Shown here: piece after piece, positions 3,371-56,559 of the stretch
Layout: each line of letters starts with the position of its first letter
How positions within the stretch are numbered: position 1 is the first letter of the stretch
Source of the DNA: Candidatus Latescibacterota bacterium
GTDB taxonomy: Bacteria; Latescibacterota; UBA2968; SICM01
Direction of reading: 5' to 3'
DNA length: 64,000 bases
Assembly: GCA_009694805.1 (NCBI GenBank)
Contig: SICM01000003.1
Location: 1-64,000 of the forward strand
Notes under the pieces: generated by a model
What the model was told of the DNA's origin: nothing
The model's database searches: none
What the model saw: the letters and a program-made list of their open reading frames with translations, nothing else
Position numbers and translations under genes: made by a program

Positions 3371-3380
3371 AAATAGGGTT

Positions 3381-3663
3381 TCCAACTTTTCTTGCTCGTG
3401 CAAGAAAAGTTGGACAAAAGAAGCACGCTCGCTCATGCGCCGCGAGGGGCTTTGGCGCGACGTACTTCGTTCCGTGACGTAATCGGGGTCCCGTGGCAGT
3501 CCGAGCCCCTTCCGCCGCACCCCCGCGCCGCTTCGCGTCGCTCGTACCCCACCGTGCCTTTGCGGACGCTCTGCTTGAAAGCCGGGACGTCGCGCCTTCT
3601 GGTCGTTTGGACAAGGTTCCTCCCCCTCTCCCTTTTTGGGGGAGGGGGATGGGGGGAGGGGTC
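3381..3663 (+). repeat. Dispersed structured element, copy 1
   Basis: HP1 TCCAACTTTTCTTGC-TCGT-GCAAGAAAAGTTGGA (3381-3414); long-range stem GGCGCGACGT (3454-3463)/ACGTCGCGCC (3587-3596); 3' CCCCCTCTCCC...GGGGGAGGGGG hairpin. Confidence 0.85.
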
Positions 3664-8390: not shown

Positions 8391-8632
8391 CCAACTTTTC
8401 TTGCTCGTGCAAGAAAAATTGGCAAAAGAAGCACGCTCCTCAGACGCCGGAGGGGCTTGGGCGCGACGCAACCTCAACGTTCAGGGGACGCACCGAAATG
8501 TGTGCCCCCGGCATGTTTGATGCTTCTGCTGGGCTCCTGCGGTGGGGGTTTCTGGCGTCGCGCCTGCTTTGGGTCTGTACACTACCTTTCTCCCCTCTCC
8601 CTGCGGGGGAGGGGAAGGGGGAGGGGTCTCAA
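8391..8632 (+). repeat. Dispersed structured element, copy 2
   Basis: HP1 8391-8422; long-range stem GGCGCGACGC (8460-8469)/GCGTCGCGCC (8555-8564); small hairpin GCACC-GAAATG-TGTGC (8490-8505); 3' CCCCTCTCCCTGCGGGGGAGGGG. Confidence 0.85.
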
Positions 8633-11856: not shown

Positions 11857-13165
11857 GGGGATTCCAACTTTTCTTGCTCGTGCAAGAAAAGTTGGGCAAA
11901 AGAAGCACGCTCGCTCAAGCGCCGCGAGGGGCTGGCGCGGCGCAACCTTAACGTCCTGCGGCCCTTCAACGTTGGGTGCTCACGGGAGGTGGGATGGCTC
12001 CGTCGGGCTCCGGTGGTCTGGGTTTCTGGCGCCGCGCACTCGGGGCTGTCGCGTTCTTCTGGTTATCCTTTTCAATATTCTTTTTGCAGCCGTATGCCCG
12101 GCGGAGGAGTGGAGGGCCGCGCGGCCCGACTATCCGTGGACGTTCCCGCAGGACCACTGGGCGCGGGAGGGGTACCGGACGGAGTGGTGGTACTTCACGG
12201 GACAGTTGTGTGTGGAGGGGGATTCGACCCGGTGGTTCGGGTATCAGTTCACGTTCTTCCGGGTGGGGACTCTGAGAGAACGACCTGACCTGGCCTCGGA
12301 CTGGGCCGCGCGGAATCTGATCATGGGGCACGCGGCCATCAGCGATCTTTCGGGGGGTCGGCATCTCTTCAGCGAAGTGCTCTACCGGGAGGTCCCGCTG
12401 CTGGCCGGGTTCAACGCATATCCGGATTCGCTGATCGCGTGGAGCCGGGGGCCCGCCGGGACGGACGGGGCCTGGGCGCTGCGCTGGAACGGAGGGGCGT
12501 TCGACTTTGAGATGCGGGACGACGCGCAGGGCGCGGCCTTCCGGCTGTCCACGCGGCCTCTGAAACCGTTGATCTTTGAGGGGCCGAACGGATACAGCCG
12601 CAAGGGGGAGGGGCCGACGGCGGCGAGCCAGTACTACAGCTTCACCCGGCTCCGGACGGAGGGGACGCTGTCGCTGGAGGGGAGGACGTGGCGGGTGCGG
12701 GGCGAGAGCTGGATGGACAAGGAGTTCGGGTCGAATCAGCTCGGCAAAGATCAGGTGGGGTGGGACTGGTTCAGTCTGCAACTGGACGACGGGCGGGAGG
12801 TCATGCTCTACCTGCTGCGCGACGCGGCGGGGGAGGTCGATTTCGCCAGGGGCACGCTGGTCACGGCGACGGGGGAGGCGCGGTACCTGACGCGGGAGGC
12901 GTGGCGGGTGCAGGCTACGGCGACGTGGAAGAGTCCCCATACCGGGGCGACGTATCCCGCCCGCTGGGTCGTGGAACTTCCGGGGGAGGGGCTGCGCCTG
13001 GAGGTCGCGCCGGAGCTGGCGGATCAGGAGAACCGGGGCAGGCTCGCCGGGGGACTTTTCTACTGGGAGGGCGCGGTGTCCGTGAAGAACTCCGGGGGGG
13101 CGCGGATCGGGCGGGGGTACGTGGAGCTGACCGGGTACGGGACGAAGAACCGGCCGGGGATATAA
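11846..13165 (+). CDS. AttH/CrtC-type lipocalin-like secreted hydrolase
   Basis: 'DYPWTFPQDHWAREGYRTEWWYFTGQL', 'GESWMDKEFGSNQL...GWDWFSLQLDDGREVMLYLLR' characteristic of AttH/CrtC; start uncertain because the frame runs through repeat copy 3 before the signal peptide RVLLVILFNILFAAVCPAEEW. Confidence 0.8.
   Translation: MIFEGIPTFLARARKVGQKKHARSSAARGWRGATLTSCGPSTLGAHGRWDGSVGLRWSGFLAPRTRGCRVLLVILFNILFAAVCPAEEWRAARPDYPWTFPQDHWAREGYRTEWWYFTGQLCVEGDSTRWFGYQFTFFRVGTLRERPDLASDWAARNLIMGHAAISDLSGGRHLFSEVLYREVPLLAGFNAYPDSLIAWSRGPAGTDGAWALRWNGGAFDFEMRDDAQGAAFRLSTRPLKPLIFEGPNGYSRKGEGPTAASQYYSFTRLRTEGTLSLEGRTWRVRGESWMDKEFGSNQLGKDQVGWDWFSLQLDDGREVMLYLLRDAAGEVDFARGTLVTATGEARYLTREAWRVQATATWKSPHTGATYPARWVVELPGEGLRLEVAPELADQENRGRLAGGLFYWEGAVSVKNSGGARIGRGYVELTGYGTKNRPGI
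11864..12050 (+). repeat. Dispersed structured element, copy 3 (lacks the 3' hairpin)
   Basis: HP1 CCAACTTTTCTTGC-TCGT-GCAAGAAAAGTTGG (11864-11895); long-range stem GGCGCGGCGC (11934-11943)/GCGCCGCGC (12029-12037). Confidence 0.8.
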
Positions 13166-21788: not shown

Positions 21789-21878
21789 ATGCAAAGCGCA
21801 AAGTGTAGAATGCAAAGTGTAAAATGTAAACCCTGTCTTTTCATTTTGTGTTTTGCATTTTGCATTTTGCATTTTGCA
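21789..21878. repeat. Degenerate heptad array, two inverted arms
   Basis: ATGCAAA|GCGCAAA|GTGTAGA|ATGCAAA|GTGTAAA|ATGTAAA (21789-21830) and TTTTGTG|TTTTGCA x4 (21844-21878). Confidence 0.9.
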
Positions 21879-23039
21879 CTCTGGTTTTTTCCCGTGCTTG
21901 CGGCGAACGCGCCCAGCAGGACCTCGGAAGAGGTGCGGACCTCCCTGGAACGGATCAAGCGGGAGGCGGAGGAGAACCGGAAGCGGTTGCGCCGGACAGA
22001 GGCGCGGGAGCGCAGCGTCGTGGCGCAGCTCGACTCTCTGGACCGGGAGATGGGGCTGGTCCGGTCCTACTTCAAGCAGCTCGACGCGGAGGCCCAGCGC
22101 CTCACGCAGGAGATGCGCGGGGCGGACACGGCGCTGGAGATGTCTGCGCAGCAGCTGGTGGACCGGCAGGCCGGTTTTGCCCGGAGGCTGCGGGACATCT
22201 ACAAGCGGGGCCGCCGGCTTCAGGGCCTCCAGGCCCTGCTGTCGGCGGACTCCTTCACCGGGCTTCTCCGCCGGTCCCGTTATCTGGCCGCCGTGGCCCG
22301 GCAGGACCGGGAGGATTACGAGGCGATCCTGCGGGACCGGGACGCCATCGGGGCCACGCGGTCCAGGCTTTCGGCGCAGCAGGAGGCGTTCGAGGCCGTC
22401 CGGAGGGAGAGAGAGGCCCAGGTGAAGGCCCTGAGCGCCCAGGTGGAGGCCCGGAAGCGGCTGCTCGGGGAGGTGCGCAGGAGCGTCAAGACGTACAAGG
22501 CTGCCGAGACGCAATTCGCCCGCGAACGCGAGCGGAGCGAGGAGGCGCTTCGTCGGCTGATCGCGGAGGCAGAGGAGGGGCGCGCTCGCAGGCAGGAGGC
22601 GCGGGGTTCCGCATCCGCTCCGCAGACAGACGCCTTCTCCGGGTTGCGAGGGCGTCTGCGATGGCCCGTCCGGGGGGCGGTCGTGGGGCGCTTCGGGCGC
22701 ATTCAGGACCCGACGCTGAAGACGTGGACCTTCAACCGGGGGATCGAGATCGAGGCCCTGGAGGGGACGCCGGTCCAGGCCGTGGCCGTCGGGCAGGTGG
22801 AGACGGTGGACTGGTTCCGGGGCTACGGGTGGTTTGCGATAGTGGGCCACGGGGGCGGCTACTACACCCTCTACGCCCATCTGAGCGAGGTCTCCGTGCG
22901 GGTCGGGGACCGGGTAGAGGCTGGAGAGCCGATCGCGCTGTCGGGGGACACGGGTACGCTCGACCAGCGGGCCACGCTCCATTTCGAAATCCTCAAAGGG
23001 AGCGATCCGGAAGACCCGTTGGCGTGGCTGGGGAGATAA
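21789..23039 (+). CDS. envC: EnvC-like murein hydrolase activator (coiled coil + M23 peptidase/LytM domain)
   Basis: Signal peptide, long coiled coil, LytM 'GIEIEALEGTPVQAVAVGQVETVDWFRGYGWFAIVGHGGGYYTLYAHLSEVSVRVGDRVEAGEPIALSGDTG'; downstream of ftsEX. Confidence 0.88.
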   Translation: MQSAKCRMQSVKCKPCLFILCFAFCILHFALWFFPVLAANAPSRTSEEVRTSLERIKREAEENRKRLRRTEARERSVVAQLDSLDREMGLVRSYFKQLDAEAQRLTQEMRGADTALEMSAQQLVDRQAGFARRLRDIYKRGRRLQGLQALLSADSFTGLLRRSRYLAAVARQDREDYEAILRDRDAIGATRSRLSAQQEAFEAVRREREAQVKALSAQVEARKRLLGEVRRSVKTYKAAETQFARERERSEEALRRLIAEAEEGRARRQEARGSASAPQTDAFSGLRGRLRWPVRGAVVGRFGRIQDPTLKTWTFNRGIEIEALEGTPVQAVAVGQVETVDWFRGYGWFAIVGHGGGYYTLYAHLSEVSVRVGDRVEAGEPIALSGDTGTLDQRATLHFEILKGSDPEDPLAWLGR

Positions 23040-27757: not shown

Positions 27758-30529
27758 GTGAACCGGGGAAAGTGGACCCTGTGGTTATTCCGCGTGGCGG
27801 CCGTGGTGCTCCTCCCTTTGCTGTCCTTCGGTGCGCTGGAGTTGGGGTTGAGGATTTTCGGATATGGGAATCCTGCTGACTTTTTCGTCAAGATCAAAGG
27901 GCGTGACGCCTATACGATCAACCCGCAATTCGGCTGGCGCTTTTTCCCTCCGGAGATCGCCAGAAGGCCCGAGCCCTGCAGCCTGCCGGCCCGGAAGGAC
28001 GCCCATACGTTTCGCATCTTTGTGCTGGGGGAATCCGCTGCCATGGGGATCCCTGAGCCGGCGTTCGGCTTCGGGCGAATCCTGGAGGTGATGCTTCGAA
28101 ACCGGTATCCCGGCATCCGGTTTGAGGTGGTCAACGCGGCCATGACGGCCATCAACTCCCACGTCATCCTTCCGATTGCCCGGGACTGCGCGGGGCGAGA
28201 CGGCGACCTGTTCATCCTGTATGCGGGCAACAACGAGGTGGTGGGGCCCTATGGCGCGGGGACCGTCTTCCAGGCTTATTCGCCCAGCCTGTCGCTGATC
28301 AGGGCCGGGGTCTGGGCGAAATCGACCCGGATCGGGCAATGGGTTGAAAATCTGATGCGATGGTCCGTCAGACGGGATCAGGGTTTTACGGAGTGGCAGG
28401 GGATGGGGATGTTTCTCCACCACCAGGTTCCGGCCGATGACCCGCGCCTGGAGAAGATCTACCAGCACTTTCAAAAGAATCTGACCGATATCTGCGAGGT
28501 CGCCAGGGGCAGGGGGGGACAGGTCATCGTCTGCACGGTGGCGACGAACCTGAAGGACAGCGCGCCGTTTGCCTCGGCGCATCGGCCTGCCCTGACCCCA
28601 TCCGACATGGCGGAATGGGAAAGGCTCTACAGGAGCGGGATTGCGCTGGCCGAATCGGGCCAGCACGCCCGTGCGATTGAGGCATTCCTCAAGGCAGTTC
28701 CCTTTGATGACCGGTTCGCGGATCTCCCCTTTCGCCTGGCCCGGAGCTATCTGGCGATGGGCCTGTTCGAGGAGGCCCGCGCACATTTCATCCAGGCCCG
28801 CGACCTGGACGCCCTCCGGTTCCGGGCGGACACCCGGATCAACGAGATCATCCGTCAGGTGGCAGGCCAAAGGGAGGTCCAGGGGATTTTTCTGATCGAC
28901 GCAGCGCGCGCGTTTGATCTGAATGGGGAGACGCCCATCCCGGGCCAGGAGCTGTTCTACGAGCACGTGCATCTGAACTTCGACGGGAACACCCTGCTCG
29001 CCAGGACGATTTTTGAGCGGGTGAGCCAAATCCTTCAGGCGAAGTTCGGGGACCGGGTTCAGGCTCCGGCCACTCCGCCGTCTAAGGACCTTTGCCAGGA
29101 GCTGTTGGCGCTGACGGACTGGAACCAGTACCGGATGCAGGCCCAGATGGCGGAGATGATGGAACACCCCCCGTTCACCCATCAGCTCGACACCGAACGG
29201 GACCGCCTTCAAAGGTATGGGGCGCTGAAGGCGTTTCGTTTGAAACGTGTCTTTCCGGCCGCTCTCCAGAAGGCCCAGGCCCAGCAGGTCTACCTCAAGG
29301 CCGTGGAACGGGACCCGGAGGACCTGAGTTTCCGGCAGGGGTTCATCCATCTTTTGCAGGAACGCCGGGACTATGCCGCTGCCGCCGCGCAATGTCGCAC
29401 GTTGCTGGAGAGGATACCGGATAATCCGTGGTTCCACGGAGGGCTGGGAGATATTCTAAGCCTTCAGGGGAAGGCCGACGAGGCGGTGGCGCAGTACCGG
29501 GAGATGCAGCGCCTCTTACCGGGGCTGGCTGCGCCCCACCTCCAGGTCGGGATGACGCTGGCCAAACAGGGTAAGTTCTCCGAGGCAGTTGCCGAGTTGA
29601 ACCGGGCGCTGGAGATCGACCCTGGATCGGAGACCGTGCGGACCCCTCTTACCGAACTCCTCGAAACCCAGGGCAGGCCGGAGGAGGCCAGAGCGGTCCT
29701 CACGTCCGGGCTTGAGAGGGCTCGCCAGCATCAGGACAGGCGCTCTGAAGGCATCTTTCTGGGCAGGCTGGGAAGGGTCTACCACAGGCAGGAAAAACCG
29801 GATGAGGCCCTGAAGTATTACCGGCGCGCGCTGGAGGCCGACCGGGAAGCTCAAAATTACCCCGGGGAGGCGGGTGTCCTCAACGATGCCGGGGATGCTT
29901 ACCTGGCCATGGGGGATTTTTCGGAGGCGCTGAAGTCTTACGAGGCCGGGCTTAAAATCTATGGAGAGATGGACGATCTCTCCGGGCAGGCCAGCGCCTT
30001 TTCGGGAATCGGGAGTGTCTTGCTCAGACGCGGGGGCGGGGGGGGAGACCTGGAAGGGGCGTTGAGGGCTTTCAAGGAGGCCCTTGAGAATCAGCGCGAG
30101 ATGGACGACCTTCCGGGGCAGGCCAGCAGTCTGGGCAACATCGGAGACGTGTACTTCCAGAAAGAGGATTGGGAGCAGGCGCTGGCCTCTTACGGAGAAG
30201 GCCTCCAGATACGGAGAGGGCTGGGGGACCTCGCCGGTCAGGCCTTCACATTGAGTTTCATGGGCAACGTCTACATCCGGAAAAAGGGGCTGGATGAGGC
30301 CCTGAACGCCCACGCGCAGGCGCTTGAGATTTACAAGAAGATCGGGGATCTTCCGGGCCAGGCCAATGCCCTCTCCAACATCGGTCTGTGTTATGCCAAA
30401 CAGGGGAGGGTGCGTGAGGCGTTCGATCTGCTGAATCAGGCTCGATCCATTTATCTCAAGATGGGGGACAGGGGGGCTGAGTTGCAGGGGGTGGAGGAGA
30501 TGATGGGGAGGCTGCAGGGGGGACAGTGA
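27758..30529 (+). CDS. Membrane-anchored SGNH-hydrolase-like + TPR protein
   Basis: N-terminal TM; 'RIFVLGESAAMGIPEPAFGFGRILEVMLRNRYP', 'ILYAGNNEVVGPYG'; many C-terminal TPRs. Confidence 0.75.
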   Translation: MNRGKWTLWLFRVAAVVLLPLLSFGALELGLRIFGYGNPADFFVKIKGRDAYTINPQFGWRFFPPEIARRPEPCSLPARKDAHTFRIFVLGESAAMGIPEPAFGFGRILEVMLRNRYPGIRFEVVNAAMTAINSHVILPIARDCAGRDGDLFILYAGNNEVVGPYGAGTVFQAYSPSLSLIRAGVWAKSTRIGQWVENLMRWSVRRDQGFTEWQGMGMFLHHQVPADDPRLEKIYQHFQKNLTDICEVARGRGGQVIVCTVATNLKDSAPFASAHRPALTPSDMAEWERLYRSGIALAESGQHARAIEAFLKAVPFDDRFADLPFRLARSYLAMGLFEEARAHFIQARDLDALRFRADTRINEIIRQVAGQREVQGIFLIDAARAFDLNGETPIPGQELFYEHVHLNFDGNTLLARTIFERVSQILQAKFGDRVQAPATPPSKDLCQELLALTDWNQYRMQAQMAEMMEHPPFTHQLDTERDRLQRYGALKAFRLKRVFPAALQKAQAQQVYLKAVERDPEDLSFRQGFIHLLQERRDYAAAAAQCRTLLERIPDNPWFHGGLGDILSLQGKADEAVAQYREMQRLLPGLAAPHLQVGMTLAKQGKFSEAVAELNRALEIDPGSETVRTPLTELLETQGRPEEARAVLTSGLERARQHQDRRSEGIFLGRLGRVYHRQEKPDEALKYYRRALEADREAQNYPGEAGVLNDAGDAYLAMGDFSEALKSYEAGLKIYGEMDDLSGQASAFSGIGSVLLRRGGGGGDLEGALRAFKEALENQREMDDLPGQASSLGNIGDVYFQKEDWEQALASYGEGLQIRRGLGDLAGQAFTLSFMGNVYIRKKGLDEALNAHAQALEIYKKIGDLPGQANALSNIGLCYAKQGRVREAFDLLNQARSIYLKMGDRGAELQGVEEMMGRLQGGQ

Positions 30530-30576
30530 GATGAAGAAAGAATCGCGCTCGCTCAGAGGTCTTTCTTGCCGGCGTT

Positions 30577-30800
30577 CCCACTTTTCTTGCTCGTGCAAGA
30601 AAAGTGGGCAAAAGAAGCACGCCCGCTCAGACGCCGCGGGGGGCTTTGGCGCGCCGCAACCTTGACGTTCAGTTGTCGCACCGAAATGGGTGCCCCCGGA
30701 AAGTGGGTTGCTTCTGCTGGACTCCGGTAGTGGGGGGTTCTGGCGGCGCGCCGCGAGTCTTTTTGACTGGGCTGTTCCCTTTATCGCCGTTTCTCTGCTT
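30577..30800 (+). repeat. Dispersed structured element, copy 4
   Basis: HP1 CCCACTTTTCTTGC-TCGT-GCAAGAAAAGTGGG (30577-30608); stem GGCGCGCCGC (30648-30657)/GCGGCGCGCC (30743-30752); small hairpin GCACC-GAAATG-GGTGC (30678-30693). Confidence 0.88.
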
Positions 30801-37740: not shown

Positions 37741-37980
37741 TCCAACTTTTCTTGCTCACCCAAGAAAAGTTGGACAAAAGAAGGGTGCTCCTCAAGCGCC
37801 GGAGGGGCTTGGCGCGCCGCAACCTTAACGTTCAGTTGTCGCACAGAAATTTGTGCCCCCGGCATGTGGGGTGCTTCTGCTGGACTCCGGTGGTGGGGGT
37901 TTCTGGCGGCGCGCCTGCTTTTGATCTGTACATCGTACTGGTTATTGTACTCTCCCCTCCCCTCTTGTAGGGAGGGGTTT
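37741..37980 (+). repeat. Dispersed structured element, copy 5
   Basis: HP1 TCCAACTTTTCTTG-CTCACC-CAAGAAAAGTTGGA (37741-37774); stem GGCGCGCCGC (37811-37820)/GCGGCGCGCC (37906-37915); small hairpin GCACA-GAAATT-TGTGC (37841-37856); 3' CCCCTCCCCTCTTGTAGGGAGGGG. Confidence 0.88.
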
Positions 37981-41850: not shown

Positions 41851-41890
41851 GCCCTCACCCCCAGCCCCTCTCCCACACGTGGGAGAGGGG
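41851..41890. repeat. CCCTCACCCC-CCCCTCTCCC hairpin repeat between convergent genes
   Basis: CCCCTCTCCCAC-AC-GTGGGAGAGGGG perfect 12-bp stem at 41865-41890. Confidence 0.8.
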
Positions 41891-49529: not shown

Positions 49530-49545
49530 GCAGAAGGCAAGAAAA

Positions 49546-49572
49546 TGTAAAATACAAAATGCAAAACAAAAA
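49546..49572 (+). repeat. Degenerate heptad array
   Basis: TGTAAAA|TACAAAA|TGCAAAA|CAAAAAAA. Confidence 0.65.
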
Positions 49573-49577
49573 AACCT

Positions 49578-56469: not shown

Positions 56470-56477
56470 AGGCAGTC

Positions 56478-56558
56478 CCTCGATACGGGGCCTGCGGCCG
56501 CTACTCGGGATAAACGGACCGTATGCCCCGAGTAGCGGCTGTAAGCCGCGTATCGAGG
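56478..56558. repeat. CCTCGATACG long nested inverted repeat, copy 2
   Basis: CCTCGATACG/CGTATCGAGG (56478-56487/56549-56558); GCCGCTACTCGGG/CCCGAGTAGCGGC (56497-56509/56527-56539); ACGG-A-CCGT apex. Confidence 0.88.
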
Positions 56559-56559
56559 G

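Follow-up and report, generated by a model that had tools for sequence, protein, structure and literature searches.

Five copies of a structured repeat in the window (the whole stretch of 64,000 nucleotides analysed here, bases 1-64000 of its contig in a 4.9-Mb genome of 293 contigs) are members of a dispersed intergenic family that has at least 115 copies in this genome. All of them share a head whose fold, as predicted from sequence, is near certain: a hairpin (HP1) with its loop pairing to a strand just downstream, and a linker that repeats one arm of the hairpin in mirror order. We consider it somewhat better than an even chance (roughly 0.55) that the family is a non-autonomous, intergenic DNA element of REP/MITE-like type, with a folded head whose shape would be recognised as a single strand.

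A covariance model of the head (R1) found five plus-strand heads in the window, at 3380, 8389, 11862, 30575 and 37740, with E values from 1e-11 to 4e-14; weaker minus-strand matches are the same palindromes in reverse. A pattern search of the window with HP1, allowing up to three mismatches, returned the five known sites only and nothing in shuffled sequence. Both searches confirmed the places and the common plus orientation which the first-pass annotation had assigned to the copies. In copy 5, HP1 occupies 37742-37773 (R1 E 1.3e-12), with arms CCAACTTTTCTTG and CAAGAAAAGTTGG, whose outer pairs covary, around the loop CTCACC (37755-37760). The linker CAAAAGAA (37775-37782) is the mirror of the HP1 purine strand AAGAAAAG and is predicted to run as a third strand along HP1. 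According to complementarity tests, GGTG at 37784-37787 is the 3′ strand of the pseudoknot and would pair with loop bases CACC at 37757-37760, and G37783 may extend it. HP2 (CTC-CTCAAGCGCCG-GAG, 37788-37804) has a middle pair that varies across type-a copies, and P3 (37811-37915), assigned from the alignment and from covariation at position 7, pairs GGCGCGCCG (37811-37819) with CGGCGCGCC (37907-37915) and closes an inner domain of type a.

The same parts, also on the plus strand, were located in the other four copies. Copy 1 (type c, 3382-3596; R1 E 2.8e-13) has HP1 at 3382-3413, the linker at 3415-3422, P3 at 3454-3462 with 3588-3596 and a pseudoknot of CGTG 3397-3400 with CACG 3424-3427. Copy 2 (type a, 8391-8564; E 1.2e-11) has HP1 at 8391-8422, the linker at 8423-8430, P3 at 8460-8468 with 8556-8564 and the pseudoknot at 8406-8409 with 8432-8435. 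For copy 3, a diverged type a (11864-12038; E 2.8e-13), the corresponding positions are 11864-11895, 11897-11904, 11934-11942 with 12030-12038, and 11879-11882 with 11906-11909; for copy 4 (type a, 30577-30752; E 3.7e-14) they are 30577-30608, 30609-30616, 30648-30656 with 30744-30752, and 30592-30595 with 30618-30621.

Exact matches to the linker pattern occur 57 times in forward and 58 times in reverse orientation genome-wide, and a control pattern gave none. For counts of anatomy and context, 96 copies were extracted from 95 stretches of the genome. The head common to all copies is ∼75 nt long, of which ∼50 nt are predicted to form the knotted hairpin, and consists of HP1 (13 bp), the linker, the pseudoknot strand, HP2 and the 5′ strand of P3; the whole unit measures ∼180-230 bp. 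The inner domains behind the head fall into four or more unrelated types, all of which are closed by the 3′ strand of P3: type a in 52 copies, c in 18, b in 10 and d in 2, the rest being 4 heads without clear closure and 10 copies that the script left unclassified. Copy 1 has the type-c domain common to 17 other copies and copies 2-5 have type a, behind the same head. HP2 sometimes contains inserted hairpins, and its middle pair in 49 type-a copies is T:A (22), C:G (21) or G:C (4). The majority of copies have diverged from copy 5 (80-93% identity), which gives no sign of recent movement. Degenerate second heads (CGCTCAGAGnCTTTCTTAnCGGCC) in the same orientation were seen in the 5′ flanks of two copies elsewhere (L053 and L113) and at 30530-30576 of the window, i.e. 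tandem or nested insertions. A motif of the inner domain, AACTCG-[hairpin]-CTCARACA, recurs in elements of several phyla (L186, L143, L210 and others) and may be a second conserved module.

Covariation in the stems, which the first-pass annotation had read from the five copies, was borne out for HP1 and P3 by the larger set. The outer pairs of HP1 exist in six compensated forms in this genome: CCAC/GTGG (59), CAAC/GTTG (16), TCAC/GTGA (6), CTAC/GTAG (3), CCCC/GGGG (1) and CGAC/GTCG (1); invariance of the inner part (TTTCTTG/CAAGAAA) was partly imposed by the search patterns used. Position 7 of P3 is C:G in 40 copies, G:C in 17 and A:T in 4, i.e. paired in 61 of 85 copies, compared with 35.7 by shuffling (maximum 49). 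Two further claims did not extend to the family. The small hairpin that had appeared to covary between copies 4 and 5 forms its fifth pair in only 13 of 45 copies, where the opposed bases are otherwise usually C/T. The 3′ C/G hairpin, which had been counted as part of the layout, was rejected as part of the element: the CCCCTCTCCC hairpin is near only 21 of 95 copies and also occurs far from heads, which indicates a separate, independent repeat. One such CCCCTCTCCC/GGGAGAGGGG hairpin is at 41865-41890 of the window. Elsewhere in the window we observed a near-perfect palindrome at 56477-56559 (41-nt arms, 83% complementary, 1 nt between them), short repeats of the TTTTGCATTTTGCA type in opposite orientation at 21844-21889 and 49542-49573, and tandem ∼120-nt coding repeats with TPR-like spacing at 29926-30367 in the gene 27758-30529.

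The loop of HP1 can pair with the bases that directly follow the linker on its 3′ side, a relation absent from the first-pass annotation that gives the head the topology of an H-type pseudoknot. The paired sequences change together: within this genome they are CGTG/CACG, TGCC/GGCA, CACC/GGTG, CGTC/GACG and CGCT/AGCG, and those of other genomes include TCGC/GCGA, TGCA/TGCA, CCGC/GCGG, TCCCA/TGGGA, GTTTGC/GCAAAC and CTTGAC/GTCAAG. For 62 distinct loop/linker pairs from outside this genome, the complementary run has a mean length of 4.40, compared with 3.11 after shuffling (the maximum of 2000 shuffles being 3.53). In 87 aligned heads, 93.4% of cells pair versus 78.4% in shuffled alignments, and the covariation score of the structure is 0.384, compared with 0.137 for shuffled alignments and 0.07-0.09 for slid structures; all four pseudoknot pairs have changed on both sides. 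The complementarity of the stem 1 loop to a downstream strand is thus accompanied by covariation, as in H-type pseudoknots. Covariation above phylogenetic background was assessed on the 87 heads with our own R-scape-style script, which used a FastTree tree, Fitch events and 200 alignments simulated along the tree. Four column pairs reached E<0.05 and all of them fall within the proposed structure: three belong to HP1 and one to the pseudoknot, whose remaining three pairs had E of 0.095, 0.105 and 0.86. The earlier reading of the copies as carrying a selected single-strand structure is thereby strongly supported and taken further, since HP1 and the pseudoknot covary beyond the tree-simulated background and the mirror rule described below adds a further constraint.

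The linker has the sequence of the 3′ purine strand of HP1 in reverse, uncomplemented order, which was likewise not among the features first recorded. In general form, a stem strand 5′-A(i) G A(j) G-3′ goes with a linker 5′-C A(j) G A(i)-3′. Among 156 distinct heads, the two j-runs have equal lengths in 143 (by shuffling, 72 on average and 91 at most in 5000 trials) and the two i-runs in 126 (74 on average and 95 at most), and the direct, unmirrored order fits 20. The mirror change of A-runs has recurred independently: within one Ralstonia replicon, copies have runs of either 3/3 or 4/4, and the runs are 5/5 in Clostridia (Oscillospiraceae) and in other families of this phylum. Such a relation would be needed by an antiparallel third strand, and from the mirror rule alone we infer that the linker may lie along HP1 in this way, as loop 3 does in H-type pseudoknots.

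In the mechanism that we propose, the element, when single-stranded (as lagging-strand DNA or as an RNA copy), would fold its head into a compact pseudoknot with the linker as third strand on HP1. An enzyme of the host or of the element would recognise the shape of this head in trans and copy or insert the element, and pairing would be kept in each lineage while the bases drift, as recognition of shape in trans would predict. That the family is mobile and recognised by shape is likely but unproven.

An alternative, which we regard as unlikely though the strongest of those considered, is a functional structured RNA (an sRNA or a UTR/attenuator module) kept in many copies by selection for a role in the host. 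An H-type pseudoknot whose A-rich third loop runs along stem 1 is a typical fold of RNA, and the head has this topology; moreover, the head-sense strand folds better in 51 of 52 type-a and 10 of 10 type-b copies. Against this, it is the opposite strand that folds better in type c, as it does in 85 of 92 non-window elements, and HP1 and the pseudoknot have few G-U pairs, with C-A mismatches as common or commoner. These differences in strand folding and the scarcity of G-U pairs favour structure at the DNA level, although base-composition skew limits the test. In inverted pairs (see below), a single unit also carries the head in both senses, and orientation relative to genes is random: the strands of the flanking genes relative to the element are -- at 37 copies, ++ at 36, +- at 10 and -+ at 7. 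A cis-regulatory UTR element was rejected on account of this random orientation.

It is improbable that the repeat serves a host protein as a duplex DNA site (with a nucleoid, gyrase or terminator-like role) and was spread by selection on its position, and this reading was rejected. Such a site would agree with the intergenic placement, since none of the 96 copies is inside a gene (simple codon-model gene calls) and the nearest upstream gene is usually 5-80 nt away. However, the loop and linker boxes change together and yet vary within one genome, which is incompatible with a single protein specificity, and it is not evident what the mirror rule would mean for recognition of a duplex.

The mobile, single-strand reading also draws on how the family behaves in other bacteria. 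In Ralstonia, a 510-bp composite carries inverted heads at its two ends, and its ∼220-bp half also occurs singly; in Oscillospiraceae, a ∼330-bp inverted pair carries two distinct heads. Both pairs have terminal inverted repeats, and the window copies are single-headed. Between acnD and prpC, two Ralstonia contain the element at a site that in Ralstonia sp. RS642 and RS650 and in Burkholderia cenocepacia is taken up by a short spacer of unrelated sequence, and a second Ralstonia site has a similar pattern of presence and absence. The spacers of the element-free orthologous sites are too diverged to place junctions and no target-site duplication was resolved; the pattern could reflect loss. In the two occupied Ralstonia orthologues the stem sequences differ with pairing kept, by compensation in situ or by replacement from another copy. 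An inverted-pair composite in Pseudomonas (L238:2935-3810) lies inside longer, imperfectly matched inverted repeats (GGTTCTTTGCG.../...GAAGAACCC) beside A-runs, which suggests a larger IS-derived carrier element.

Movement by a RAYT (a Y1 HUH transposase), as in REP/REPIN systems, is highly doubtful as an explanation. The family is high-copy, intergenic, palindromic, non-coding and chromosomal like REPs (Nunvar 2010, PMC2817692; Bertels and Rainey 2011, PMC3116915), occurs as singlets and inverted doublets as REPINs do (PMC3116915), and has compensatory variation within one genome. In contrast to REPs of 20-40 nt, its unit is ∼200 nt with a pseudoknot and a mirror linker, and the conserved bases before HP1 (CCCnnCCCGSATT) are without the GTAG/GGAG tetranucleotide at the hairpin foot. 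The connection with IS200/IS605-type (Y1/RAYT) transposition that had been suggested for the copies found no support. This genome does have one Y1 match, a RAYT-like gene that looks frameshifted and is flanked by hsdS- and hsdR-like genes in a type I restriction-modification locus (L031), whose 2.85 kb contain no head, and no RAYT gene flanked by its REPs was found in this genome. Y1 protein was undetected in 11 of 51 head-bearing genomes (some of the genomes are incomplete), among them the two with the most heads (184 and 144); a RAYT/IS200 enzyme as necessary mobiliser was therefore rejected. It counts against the mobile reading itself that no recurrent transposase-like gene was found among 112 head loci; an all-versus-all comparison of the ORFs beside the heads returned only translations of the repeat and no shared mobiliser. 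Finally, it is extremely unlikely that the folding is unselected and that template-switch (quasipalindrome) correction in replication maintains the complementarity of the arms, a reading that was also rejected. Such correction would leave compensatory double changes with few G-U intermediates in HP1 but cannot yield the mirror, non-complementary relation between stem and linker and leaves the conservation of the head across phyla unexplained.

The head is present in multiple copies in at least seven phyla (Pseudomonadota, Bacillota, Desulfobacterota, Nitrospirota, Bacteroidota, Patescibacteria and Latescibacterota). Among the matches listed from a scan of genome collections are Burkholderiales, Gallionella, Pseudomonas, Thiobacillus, Nitrospirae, Oscillospiraceae, Ruminococcus, Desulfobacteraceae, Parcubacteria and Cellulophaga; all 41 named genomes that were searched again contain multiple heads, up to 184 per genome, and 14 of 65 Latescibacterota genomes match. 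Searches of phages and E. coli found no head, matches on viral contigs were confined to five stretches, most at contig edges, and only 10 plasmid records contained a head, half of them replicons above 1 Mb. Such near-absence from phages, viral contigs and small plasmids is unusual for an active mobile element.

Whether the family had already been described, a point that the first-pass annotation had left for checking, can be answered in part. Rfam 15 gave no match at the curated threshold in the window and 18 other loci, by which a known Rfam family was rejected, and no credible match at E up to 5 for five loci; the motif strings were not found in the open-access papers searched. The Bordetella families Bor-1/Bor-2 (PMC2267715), compared by description rather than by sequence, could overlap with this family and could be earlier sightings of it. 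With bacterial MITEs and structured repeats in general (ERIC, NEMIS and the families of Cozzuto 2008, PMC2267715), it shares a non-autonomous, intergenic and hairpin-rich nature and, in Ralstonia and Clostridia, inverted-repeat composites; unlike them, its single units are without terminal inverted repeats and the same head spans phyla. The ends of IS200/IS605 elements are hairpins recognised as single strands, as we propose for the head; however, no cognate transposase gene adjoins the copies, and the loop of the head pairs with the 3′ flank whereas the guide at the IS foot pairs with the cleavage site. Stem-1/loop-3 triple-helix pseudoknots of viral frameshifters and telomerase RNA likewise have a stem 1 whose loop pairs downstream and an A-rich third loop antiparallel to the 3′ strand of the stem, but here the structure is a dispersed genomic repeat and the mirror match is exact, including the G and the lengths of the A-runs. 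In its life style the family is like REPINs, and its fold is like that of frameshifting pseudoknots, but it lacks features that define REP/RAYT systems and membership of an Rfam family. More tentatively, and at less than even odds, the family may represent a possibly ancient, previously unrecognised class of bacterial dispersed element, with a pseudoknot-plus-third-strand head, numbering up to hundreds of copies per genome in several phyla and spread by a shape-reading enzyme.

A head that follows exact covariation rules in at least seven phyla and is absent from Rfam 15 offers a sharp handle on the old question of how short structured repeats are spread and kept in bacteria. It also explains why certain ORFs labelled ‘hypothetical protein’ recur, as mere translations of these repeats. 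Moreover, the head lends itself naturally to tests of third-strand structure under selection and, if this reading is true, a third-strand (triplex) contact kept by selection would have left its sequence signature in a genomic repeat, namely the mirror rule.
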